DNA from: Geobacter sp.
Lineage (GTDB): Bacteria; Desulfobacterota; Desulfuromonadia; Geobacterales; Geobacteraceae
DNA length: 64,000 bases
Assembly: GCA_003574885.1 (NCBI GenBank)
Contig: PJFC01000001.1
Span: forward strand, 682,001 to 746,000
Reading direction: 5' to 3'
Position 1 is the first letter of the stretch; every line of letters begins with the position of its first letter. This document shows, in pieces, positions 52,792 through 56,173 of this stretch. Both the position numbers and the translations under genes were made by a program. The notes beneath the pieces are model-generated. The model was not told the origin of the DNA. It searched no databases and saw only the letters and a list, made by a program, of their open reading frames with translations.

Positions 52792-53646
52792 TCAGCCTCT
52801 CGGCCCTGATGCCATTTCTTCCAGCCTTCGTACCCGTTCTTCCATGGGGGGATGGGTGGAGAAGAGGGACATGAGTCCGCCCCCCGTGAGGGGGTTGACA
52901 ATGAACATGTGGGCCGTGGCAGGTGTTGCTCCGCCCATCGGAATCTGCCGGTTGGCCATCTCCAGTTTGCGGAGCGCGTTGGCCAGGTAGAGGGGGTTGC
53001 CGCTGATCTCGGCGCCACCCCGGTCAGCACCAAACTCACGGGAGCGGGAGATCGCCATCTGGATGAGCATGGCGGCGATGGGGGCGACGATGGCCATAAT
53101 GATGAGGCCGAATCCTCCCCCTTCCTCGTCCCGGTCGCGGCCGCCGCCGAAGATCGCTGCCCACTGGGCCATCTGGGCCAGGTAGGTGATGGCGCCTGCT
53201 ATGGTGGCGGCTACGGAAGAGATGAGGATGTCGCGGTTCCTGACATGGGTCAGTTCATGGGCCATGACTCCCATCAGTTCCTCGCGGGTGAGAATCCGCA
53301 TGATGCCGCTGGTTGCAGCCACAGCAGCGTGCTCCGGATTACGCCCCGTGGCGAAAGCGTTGGGAGTTTCCGAAGGAATGACGTAGACCTTGGGCATGGG
53401 GAGGGATGCCTGCGCAGCCAGTTGGCGTACCAACCCGAAGAATTCGGGCTGCTCGGACTCGGTCACCTCTTTGGCGCCGTACATGGCGAGGACGATCTTG
53501 TCGGAGAACCAGTAGGAAACAAAGTTCATCACTCCCGCCATGACGAGGGCGAAGGTCATGCCATGCCTTCCGCCGATGGCGCCCCCTGCCAGGACAAGCA
53601 GCATGGTGAGCAGGGCCATGAGAAAAGTTGTTTTCAAGGTATTCAT
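52792..53646 (-). CDS. htpX: HtpX-type membrane zinc metalloprotease
   Basis: 284 residues from ATG 53646; an in-frame ATG at 53658 would add four. Two N-terminal membrane segments ([19 protein letters not shown] and [16 protein letters not shown]) precede the catalytic motif HELTH (HExxH, near residue 130). Two further membrane segments ([19 protein letters not shown] and [19 protein letters not shown]) and the glutamate ligand in [11 protein letters not shown] follow. HtpX degrades misfolded membrane proteins under envelope stress. It is the first gene of the leftward group htpX-rsmB-rpe-NUDIX. Confidence 0.95.
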
Positions 53647-53758
53647 TATTTTTCCCATCCTTTTTCTTGAGACAATTTTGAACATGTATCAACCAACTAA
53701 CCCAGTATAGTCATTGCTGTTTGAAACTGCAAGGGGGAGCTATGGCTGGTGGCTCTTC

Positions 53759-53786
53759 TTGACTCCCGTCGTGAGTGCGCTAGGAT
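53759..53786 (+). promoter_or_regulatory. Promoter of the selenoprotein candidate
   Basis: TTGACT, 16-base spacer, TAGGAT. An AGAGGAGG ribosome-binding site at 53830-53840 precedes the ATG at 53848. Confidence 0.6.
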
Positions 53787-53847
53787 TTACGCACAACCGG
53801 CAAGCCGGCAGGCATACCATTACCAAACAACAAGAGGAGGTAGTGAC

Positions 53848-54417
53848 ATGGCAAGTGTGATCAACTGGGAGACCGACTTGACCAGAGCCCTCGCCCGGGG
53901 TCAGGCCGAGCACAAGACCGTTCTGCTCGATTTTTTCAACCCTGGCTGAATTGGCTGCAAACAGATGGATGCGGTCACGTATCCCAACGTGAAGGTCTTC
54001 GATTTCATCACAGCGAATGTGGTGCCGATCCGGGTCCCGGCGGACAGCAAGCCGCTGCCTGATGAGTTCAAGCTTACCTGGACACCCACTCTCATCACCC
54101 TCGATTACTACGGGAAGGAACATCACCGGACCGTCGGCTTCCTCCCCGCCGATGATCTGATCGCTTCTCTGATGCTGGGGATGGGGAAAACCGATTTCGA
54201 CACGGGGGACTTCAATGATGCCATCATTCATTTTGACCGGGTGCTGGCCGACTTTCCCCTGAGCAGTTTTGCTCCCGAGGCGGTCTATCTTCGCGGAGTC
54301 AGCCGTTTCAAGGCAAGCCATGATGCCACAGCCCTGAAACAGGCCTACGAGAAGCTTACGGCTGACTACCCGGCCAGTGAGTGGGCGAAGCGGGCCGAGC
54401 CATACAATCTGCTTTAG
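53848..54417 (+). CDS. Thioredoxin-fold protein with an in-frame TGA (probable selenocysteine, U-x-x-C motif), TPR-like tail
   Basis: 189 codons if the TGA at 53947-53949 is read as selenocysteine (codon 34). The frame is open on both sides with no shift. Up to the TGA the sequence (TVLLDFFNPG) is the strand before a thioredoxin active site; after it come IGCKQMDAVTYPNVKVFDFI, giving U-I-G-C, where homologues would have C-x-x-C. The thioredoxin fold then continues (WTPTLITLDYYGKE has the cis-Pro). The tail from about residue 115 (DFNDAIIHFDRVLADFP..) resembles a TPR. Promoter, ribosome-binding site and terminator bracket the whole 570 bases. A nonsense mutation is the alternative. Confidence 0.75.
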
Positions 54418-54441
54418 ATGGAGTCTGTTGCGATCGTACGG

Positions 54442-54472
54442 ACGGGGGCCGCGGTGAGGCCCCCGTTTTTTG
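54442..54472 (+). terminator. Terminator after the selenoprotein candidate
   Basis: ACGGGGGCC-GCGGTGA-GGCCCCCGT followed by TTTTT; 24 bases past the stop codon. Confidence 0.9.
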
Positions 54473-54670
54473 TCTGCATTTTGCTTTAACTTATGGTATC
54501 TATTTAATTGACTTATATTCGGCAGTTGAACACTGCCTGCATTCGTACTAAAGGCCTATTTCTGTAATTCTAAGCTCATTGCGCTGCATCCGATCAACTC
54601 ACCCGGTGGGTTCAGACAGGATCGGCTGCGGACGCTTCATTTCGCCAAGAATTACGACGAAATAGCCCTC
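54473..54670. other. Intergenic stretch upstream of cls
   Basis: 198 bases without a supported gene. AT-rich at 54480-54520 and probably containing the cls promoter, but no pair of boxes is clear enough to call. Confidence 0.35.
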
Positions 54671-56173
54671 ATGTACTCCTTCTGGCAGTATTCAACTGCC
54701 GTTTTTAGGATTAACGAGTTGGCTGGCATGGGGGGGCGTTTGGATCATTTTCTGCTGGGGGTACTGGTCCTGGTTATCGTGGCGCTGTCGCTTACGTCGG
54801 CGCTCCATGCCCTCATCATGAAACGGGATCCCCGCTCGGCCCTTGGATGGATCGTCACCAGCATAACTCTGCCGGTAATCGGCCCGTTCTTTTACTGGAC
54901 CATGGGGGTCAACTGGATATCCCGGACGGCCCGTCAGTGGCTGGAAAGCGGGCGCCTTTTCGCCGGCTGGGACGACTTCCCCGCCCGTGTGGATTTGCGG
55001 GTGGCAGGAGATCTCCCCCCTGAAGCATCCAATCTGCGGGAACTGCGGGCGCTTTCGGACCGGCTGGTAAGTTCGGCGCTTTTGTCCGGCAACAGCATCC
55101 TGCCGCTGAAAAACGGCGAAACCGCCTATCCTGCCATGTTGGCAGCCATAGAAGGCGCAGCCAGTTCCATTCACCTGAGCACCTATATATTCGATTCTGA
55201 CATCACCGGCCGCAGGTTCGCTGACGCTTTGAAGCTGGCCGCCGACCGGGGAGTCGAGGTGAGGGTGATTATTGACAGCCTCGGTGAAAAGTATTCACGC
55301 CCCCCGATCCGCACTTTCCTCCGTGGGTCGCGGGTCAAGGTTGGCAAATTTCTCCCCCTGCGTCAGGGGGGATACGTAAACCTGCGTAACCATCGGAAGA
55401 TTCTTGTCGTAGACGGAAAGACCGCCTTCACCGGCGGGATGAATATCGGCGACCGCCATCTGGTTGAGCGGAACGGCAAGCCGCCGGCGGTCGCGGATAT
55501 GCATTTCCGGGTAGAAGGGCAGGTGGTGGCCGACCTGCAGCGGGTGTTCCTTGAGGACTGGTACTTCACCACCGGCGAGCTGCTGGCTGACCAAAGCTGC
55601 TTTCCGCTATTGGCGGAAACAGGGAGCGCCATGGCCCGGGTCGTCGGCGACGGTCCGGACAAAGAGTTCCGCAAGCTGCACTGGATCATCATGGGAGCGC
55701 TTGCCTGTGCCCGCAAGCGAGTCCTGATCATGACTCCTTATTTCGTCCCCGACCGTCCCCTTATATCCGCCCTTGCAACCACGGCACTGCGGGGGGTCGA
55801 CGTGACCCTCGTGCTTCCCTCCTGCAACAACCTTCCCTTCGTTCACTGGGCCAGTCGTGCCTATCTCTGGGAATTGTTGCAGATGGGGATCAATGTCTAC
55901 TATCAACCCGCCCCCTTTGTCCATACCAAGCTCTTTCTGGTGGACGGTGTATGGAGCCTCATCGGTTCTGCCAATATGGATTCCCGAAGCCTCCGGCTCA
56001 ATTTCGAGCTCGACCTGGAAGTCTACGATGCCCCTTTTGCCGGACTGCTGGAACAGGATTTCATGGATGCCGTCGCCCGTTCCCACCGGGTTACCCTGGA
56101 GGAGATGGACGCCCGCAGCCTCCCCGTCAAGCTCCGGGACGCCACAGCTAAGCTTTTTTCACCCTATCTCTAA
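54671..56173 (+). CDS. cls: Cardiolipin synthase, phospholipase-D type
   Basis: 500 residues from ATG 54671; an ATG at 54728 (MGGRLDHF) would remove 19 and neither start has a good ribosome-binding site. Two N-terminal membrane helices (FLLGVLVLVIVALSLTSALHAL; ALGWIVTSITLPVIGPFFYW) precede two phospholipase-D HKD motifs: HRKILVVDGKTAFTGG (near residue 240) and HTKLFLVDGVWSLIGSANMDSRS (near 418). It joins phosphatidylglycerols to make cardiolipin at the inner membrane. Fifteen bases separate it from the rbgA gene, so they are co-transcribed. Confidence 0.92.
   Translation: MYSFWQYSTAVFRINELAGMGGRLDHFLLGVLVLVIVALSLTSALHALIMKRDPRSALGWIVTSITLPVIGPFFYWTMGVNWISRTARQWLESGRLFAGWDDFPARVDLRVAGDLPPEASNLRELRALSDRLVSSALLSGNSILPLKNGETAYPAMLAAIEGAASSIHLSTYIFDSDITGRRFADALKLAADRGVEVRVIIDSLGEKYSRPPIRTFLRGSRVKVGKFLPLRQGGYVNLRNHRKILVVDGKTAFTGGMNIGDRHLVERNGKPPAVADMHFRVEGQVVADLQRVFLEDWYFTTGELLADQSCFPLLAETGSAMARVVGDGPDKEFRKLHWIIMGALACARKRVLIMTPYFVPDRPLISALATTALRGVDVTLVLPSCNNLPFVHWASRAYLWELLQMGINVYYQPAPFVHTKLFLVDGVWSLIGSANMDSRSLRLNFELDLEVYDAPFAGLLEQDFMDAVARSHRVTLEEMDARSLPVKLRDATAKLFSPYL

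Follow-up and report, generated by a model that had tools for sequence, protein, structure and literature searches.

An in-frame TGA very probably read as selenocysteine in a thioredoxin-fold protein with a putative TPR tail from Geobacter sp.

The "thiol:disulfide interchange protein" is a bacterial selenoprotein family assigned to PF13098, with a UxxC motif and WP_011366075.1 as an example, according to the accessible parts of PMC13188914, PMC9312934 and PMC1794560. The family was first listed in a 2005 paper (given as reference 12 in the accessible part of PMC13188914). The available portion of PMC1794560 reports it from Geobacter metallireducens, G. uraniireducens and Syntrophus, and the 2006 table of that paper gives three members. 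A marine survey, in its accessible text, has an entry "Trx-like 2" (cd02953) with the unlabelled numbers 22, 13 and 2,098 (PMC2398784). Neither TPR nor tetratricopeptide is mentioned in the main texts of two reviews. A combination of an N-terminal thioredoxin domain and a C-terminal TPR part in one protein is known from CnoX (YbbN). In the part of PMC8129009 available, the TPR part of the E. coli CnoX consists of two subdomains with five helices in each, and the Caulobacter CnoX has a CxxC motif.

The gene under study is located in a window of 64,000 nucleotides of the Geobacter sp. assembly GCA_003574885.1 (contig PJFC01000001.1), and all positions given below are those of the window. The features of the locus are as follows:

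52795 to 53685, minus strand: htpX (zinc metalloprotease), divergent neighbour, adjoining the gene in 6 of 9 relative regions (simple ORF calling)
53835 to 53840, plus strand: Shine-Dalgarno sequence AGGAGG, 7 nt 5′ of the ATG, read from the sequence
53848 to 54417, plus strand: selenoprotein gene with ATG at 53848, TGA at 53947-53949 and TAG at 54415-54417
53947 to 53949, plus strand: in-frame TGA, almost certainly the Sec codon of residue 34, from the TGA/Cys column in 129 family sequences
53956 to 53958, plus strand: TGC, putative resolving Cys37 of U-I-G-C, invariant in the 31-row alignment A1
53967 to 53984, plus strand: SECIS hairpin GGATGCG-GTCA-CGTATCC, seven pairs, loop at 53974-53977, 24 nt from TGA to loop
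54440 to 54468, plus strand: intrinsic-terminator-like hairpin, 11 pairs with a T-rich tail
54671 to 56173, plus strand: gene for cardiolipin synthase, next downstream, also seen in 8 of the 9 relative regions

The TGA at codon 34 is the sole interruption of the frame, and the original prediction of one frame open on both sides of it holds: codons 1-33 are open, as are the 155 codons 3′ of the TGA, a stretch that was equally open in 60 of 20,000 base shuffles. The read-through product has 189 residues, with U at 34, C at 37 and the motif FFNPG-U-IGC. In the part downstream of the TGA, dN/dS is 0.055-0.069 against three sequences of the same genus and 0.10 against one more distant sequence, and is saturated against a fifth; protein-level selection continues past the TGA. 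Were the TGA a true stop, the locus would hold a 33-residue peptide, a pseudogene or a separate gene, and the mechanical ORF list does offer a gene of 150 aa from ATG 53965 to 54417. That list starts 3′ of the active site, so the function is missed. A protein starting from M40 would be devoid of the redox motif, and the codons 5′ of the TGA specify the first thioredoxin helix and strand in the structure model, conserved in 31 rows. Given also the low downstream dN/dS, the retention of TGA in 105 of 129 homologues with Cys in the remainder, and the conserved SECIS described below, a true stop is very improbable, and the reading of the TGA as a Sec codon is preferred.

The signals flanking the gene were also predicted originally, with varying success. 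The ribosome-binding site was found, and aggaggt also stands 5′ of the ATG in three same-genus sequences (L011-L013). The terminator stood in part: an 11-pair hairpin does exist, but the scan gave one such hairpin against 0.8 expected by chance and is by itself no proof of termination. The promoter is not supported, with a single weak sigma-70-like match (9/12), one found versus 0.5 expected. A scan of positions 53700-54600 against Rfam yielded four hits with E values up to 10. None of them, the best being frnS (E 1.4), attained the gathering score, and all four were treated as chance matches.

Homologues were collected in several steps. The first search covered 58 genomes (the window's own and its relatives) and gave 32 rows at E ≤1.3e-37 in 31 genomes, 24 with one internal TGA and 8 without a stop. 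A profile was built from 31 family sequences (alignment A1) and then run on class and phylum genomes. At the class level 58 of 277 genomes had a match at E 1e-15, and at the phylum level 127 of 395 had one at E 1e-12, many of these being merely other thioredoxin proteins. Among the matches listed for the phylum sample, 74 genomes carry a TGA form versus 9 without TGA. For some genomes the status was taken from the listing rather than from fetched sequence, both for TGA forms (e.g., G524, G411, G624, G464 and G512) and for forms without a stop (G586, G621, G467, G639 and G549); Cys was read directly in four of the nine phylum genomes without TGA (G553, G291, G489 and G392).

A six-frame profile search of the fetched loci with a threshold of 1e-20 gave 158 hits. 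One hit with a gap at the column (in L075) was dropped, and L075's own family gene was counted. Copies that did not differ within 300 bases around the codon were merged into one, which reduced 157 sequences to 129. Weak thioredoxin hits with Cys-Ile-Pro-Cys (L050-L055, L057, L058 and L060) were below the threshold and were left out of the family set, as was L056, which gave no hit. Codon 34 of the 129 distinct sequences, the window's included, is TGA in 105, TGC in 17, TGT in 7 and any other codon in none. The site is therefore Sec or Cys in all 129 sequences, which agrees with the predicted position of the TGA in place of the first Cys of the motif, with C37 three residues further on. Almost certainly, the apparent stop at codon 34 is read as Sec.

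The next line of evidence is the RNA structure 3′ of the TGA. In bacterial SECIS elements the loop lies about 16-37 nt from the UGA. The hairpin at 53967-53984 is within this range, and the predicted folding energy of the 18-mer is -9.6 kcal/mol. Codons 34-64 of A1 are free of gaps, therefore the RNA could be stacked directly; the 18-base hairpin starts with the last base of codon 40. Pairs were counted out of six in two registers, one with the loop at bases 7-10 and one with it at 6-9, and the higher count was kept; synonymous resamples were scored alike. The 105 Sec sequences have a mean of 5.49 of 6 pairs versus 3.73 under synonymous resampling (0 of 1000 resamples reach the observed value), and at least 5 of 6 pairs are present in 102 of them. 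For the 24 Cys sequences, the mean is 4.12 pairs versus 4.13. Sec forms keep the SECIS far beyond the amino-acid requirement; Cys forms do not.

Among the 105 Sec sequences, 29 distinct hairpin strings occur, and 26 of these have at least 5 pairs. Compensatory changes were found at three positions. Pair 2-15 changes from A-U to G-C (Asp-Tyr GAT..TAT to Gly-Tyr GGT..TAC, the Tyr codon change being silent), pair 3-14 from U-A to A-U (GAT..TAT to Glu-Phe GAA..TTT) and pair 1-16 from G-C to A-U in the paralogue type with AAT..TATT. Loop base 7 is G in 105 of 105 sequences, and bases 7-8 are GU in 89 of 105, so the locus has a 3′ hairpin with G or GU in the apical loop, as is typical of a SECIS. 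In a scan with 22-base windows, the folding excess peaks at offset 18 (z -33), windows 3 bases to either side give z of -17 to -18, and where the scan ends there is a lesser excess, with z -4 at offset 42 and z -13 at offset 45. Three of the 105 TGA sequences (L163, L169 and L178) have no hairpin at the usual place; possibly their signal is located elsewhere, or the proteins themselves have changed.

The Cys sequences also show some folding excess. With pooled codon usage, their folding energy is -5.11 versus -3.35 (0 of 200), and with its own codon usage the Cys clade gives 4.25 versus 4.44 pairs and an energy of -5.59 versus -4.68 (4 of 300). For a possible SECIS remnant in this clade, then, there is no excess of pairs and a slight one of folding energy. 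The pooled-usage energy excess is taken as partly a composition effect.

The original prediction of a SECIS just downstream of the TGA was partly right: a conserved hairpin exists, and it is not the one put first. That first hairpin, CACGT-ATCCCA-ACGTG (53976-53991), forms on average 3.0 of its 5 pairs in the 105 Sec sequences and was rejected as the SECIS since it is not conserved. Its second candidate, the GGCTGCA..TGCGGTC stem (53953-53976), has a modest excess of pairs, 5.90 of 7 versus 4.55 by synonymous chance (0 of 500). With resampling confined to codons 1-5 after the TGA, the chance value is 5.54 (again 0 of 500). The folding energy of this stretch is -6.14 versus -4.84 with codons 1-5 resampled or -5.29 with all resampled. 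The excess is small, and the stem overlaps the better-supported hairpin at 53967-53984, so that the two cannot form together.

All four genes for Sec synthesis and insertion whose presence the original prediction had made a test were found in the window's genome: SelA (508.7 bits), SelB (369.2 bits), tRNA-Sec with the anticodon TCA (74.7 bits, cut-off 47) and SelD (369.9 bits; L065, C1 974792-975715). This SelD is a selenoprotein form as well, its gene having an in-frame TGA within KAAG-U-AAK. Translation of the UGA as Cys or Trp by a near-cognate tRNA or through a local code change, with no selenium involved, would fit the Cys found at the site in 24 of 129 homologues. The Sec machinery genes of the genome and the conservation of the SECIS in TGA forms only speak against it, and such a selenium-free reading is extremely improbable.

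Within 28 genomes checked, SelA was found in 26 and tRNA-Sec over the cut-off in 26. TGA carriers have SelA in 17 of 18 cases and tRNA-Sec in 16 of 18, and all eight Cys carriers have both. The misses among TGA carriers are G016, with SelA and no tRNA-Sec over the cut-off, and G013, which has the TGA form and SelB with neither a SelA hit nor a tRNA-Sec over the cut-off (L071, G013 C146). Two of the 28 genomes have no family member: G006, with SelA and tRNA-Sec, and G018, a sister of G013, with tRNA-Sec and no SelA. The tRNA-Sec gene of G018 starts 37 bases from a contig end (L185, G018 C2 1-1500); elsewhere selA lies beside the tRNA-Sec gene (G008) or about 1 kb from it (G051). This hints at an assembly gap over selA, which may explain its absence in both G013 and G018; contamination of the G013 genome is another candidate explanation.

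At the phylum level, among the matches listed, SelA was found in 70 of 74 TGA genomes versus 5 of 9 genomes without TGA (Fisher p 0.004). The phylum is rich in SelA (355 of 395 genomes), therefore the TGA carriers do not stand out from all other genomes (70/74 vs. 285/321, p 0.20). SelB was sought in ten exceptions and was over the cut-off in G013, G018, G424, G281 and G352. Three of the four TGA genomes without SelA have SelB over the cut-off, and the fourth, G317, which is 67% complete, gave none. Nor was SelB over the cut-off in the no-TGA carriers G553, G467, G639 and G549; SelA absence in G553, G549 and G639 means no entry among the matches listed.

Those named checks that were run, the alignment of homologues at position 34 (105 Sec and 24 Cys of 129) and the search for the sel genes among them, support the Sec reading, and the column, the genes and the conserved SECIS all agree with the claim that the UGA is recoded. 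From the TGA/Cys column, the SECIS, the machinery genes and the domain order we infer the actual insertion of Sec. With high confidence, SelB and tRNA-Sec would decode the UGA at 53947 as Sec, guided by the hairpin 24 nt downstream, and the product would be a U-I-G-C thioredoxin-TPR redox protein.

The predicted thioredoxin fold was confirmed by a Thioredoxin_2 match of 36.5 bits (cut-off 27), and all 31 A1 members match this domain. The thioredoxin-like part spans residues ~5-107 and the TPR part residues ~109-184. TPR Pfam matches are below their cut-offs in the window protein; TPR_6 is found in 22 of 31 A1 members at E 0.01. The five structure models disagree, with mean pLDDT from 83.6 to 47.7. 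The best model (83.6) opens with the strands and helices of a thioredoxin, has five further helices from residue 101 on, and is weak at the active site (pLDDT 57 for residues 31-40 and 67 for residues 41-50). Its C-terminal part aligns with BamD/YbgF TPR structures (best Z 13.4), and a Z near 13 for helical repeats may reflect only a common arrangement. The residues W78-T79-P80 are invariant in A1, and Thr79-Pro80 sits where thioredoxins carry the cis-proline. No signal peptide was seen by eye in the 189-residue product, and its site is probably cytosolic.

Like the published "thiol:disulfide interchange protein" family, the window protein has Thioredoxin_2 over the cut-off and a UxxC motif (U34-I-G-C37). 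In one relative, G021, TGA occurs in one PF00085 protein and in another protein, of PF13098, that belongs to the same family as the window protein; these are the same two kinds, "thioredoxin" and "thiol:disulfide interchange protein", that the accessible part of PMC1794560 lists as selenoproteins. The two families are very probably the same, matched by name, motif, distribution and the TGA proteins of G021 rather than by sequence. Compared with the three members of the 2006 table, as far as that source was accessible, the present set holds 105 Sec sequences and a nested Cys clade. What is added here to this known kind of selenoprotein is a phylum-wide distribution with prevailing TGA forms and the putative TPR tail, together with a second type of paralogue and one clade that probably changed from Sec to Cys with the Sec machinery kept.

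The best sequence relatives among solved structures are the C-terminal domain of DsbD and 2kuc, aligned over the thioredoxin domain. The DsbD model aligns only by its end (460-569 of 574) with the 189-aa window protein and gives 38 bits, below the cut-off of 330. The score against the thioredoxin equivalog TIGR01068 is 24.8 bits, with 96.8 needed. The window protein stays below the cut-off of every NCBIfam model, so genes of this kind may well carry wrong annotations. The same genome encodes a second selenoprotein, a thioredoxin with an in-frame TGA and the motif EFWAPW-U-PHC (L186 1000-1350; C1 about 478535-478831). This Sec thioredoxin (WUPHC, PF00085; G000:C1:478535), which also occurs in the related genomes, likewise has a UxxC thioredoxin fold, but it is a single-domain classical thioredoxin, whereas the window protein has a putative TPR tail.

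As for its function, the window protein is most likely a selenol-based reductase. The Sec34 selenolate would attack an oxidised sulfur group, such as a disulfide, on a putative partner held by the TPR domain, Cys37 would resolve the mixed selenenyl sulfide, and a reductase would then reset the Sec34/Cys37 pair. It is conceivable but unlikely that the protein is instead a scaffold or chaperone that acts through its TPR part, with a regulatory role for the Sec site. According to the accessible part of PMC8129009, the E. coli CnoX (YbbN), with its thioredoxin and TPR parts, has SxxC and does not reduce insulin. YbbN-type structures take Foldseek ranks 1 and 3 (E 4.5e-4 and 1.7e-3) with low TM-scores of 0.38/0.26 and 0.36/0.25, the values 0.38 and 0.36 being for the query length. 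All 129 sequences have Sec or Cys as residue 34, and Cys37 is invariant in 31 of 31 A1 rows, which points to thiol/selenol chemistry and speaks against the scaffold reading; one distant Cys sequence, L182, has no second Cys. By analogy the window protein may work like CnoX. From residue 101 on, its model shows a total of five helices against two five-helix subdomains in the E. coli CnoX, and YbbN is absent among the 50 VIA-align entries listed. The TPR part is about half the CnoX size and the fold scores are low, therefore the protein was not filed as CnoX.

A broader and quite tentative proposal, to which we give a low probability, is a phylum-wide, Sec-dominated cytosolic "selenium chaperedoxin" of anaerobes. 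Its UxxC site and TPR part would act jointly on oxidised or misfolded proteins, reducing and holding them, perhaps in concert with the neighbouring htpX, a gene of protein quality control, and one Geobacteraceae lineage would have converted it from Sec to Cys with the machinery kept.

The history of the Sec/Cys site was studied with a quick tree of the 129 sequences with residue 34 masked; it has no inferred root and some long branches. Four state changes suffice on this tree versus a shuffled mean of 22.4. One Cys clade of 20 (SH-aLRT 98), all from the window's taxonomic family, is nested among Sec sequences and comprises 19 members of the genus code g13, which include sequences matching the Geomonas records L046 and L047, and G009. 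The Cys sequence of G553, for which no SelA was found among the matches listed, is nested in the second paralogue type; the other three Cys rows are on long or doubtful branches. The tree reads as two putative changes from Sec to Cys, one in a lineage that retains the machinery (8 of 8 genomes checked) and one where SelA was not found; the direction rests on nesting. For the same-named family, the accessible part of PMC1794560 gives one Cys-to-Sec and no Sec-to-Cys event, and describes Sec-to-Cys change as a rare event, confined for the most part to formate dehydrogenase and SelD. Sec clades beside the 20-row Cys clade, with SelA and tRNA-Sec in the eight genomes checked, offer a natural experiment on the retention and loss of Sec.

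The order of genes upstream of the window gene, in the divergent direction, is rpe-rsmB-htpX. In eight relatives (G001, G002, G004, G005, G007, G010, G045 and G053), selA lies 3.6-7.4 kb downstream on the same strand, and in some of them a CbiR-like gene, a potassium-channel-like gene and a GntR-type regulator lie in between; the CbiR-like/channel/GntR/selA group of the window's genome is on another contig. This is a loose linkage of the selenoprotein gene with its machinery. The family gene is split in G028 C9 (L038, L059), with matches to 4-147 and 145-189 in separate stretches, owing to a frameshift or an assembly error.

The second paralogue type has the motif DFWFDG-U-LGC..MNTGPYS, and most of its members carry the hairpin AATACG-GGTC-CGTATT. 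Its Sec loci are L048, L049, L136-L140, L151, L156, L159, L161, L164, L171 and L174, and its Cys locus is L175. Both paralogue types are present in G005.
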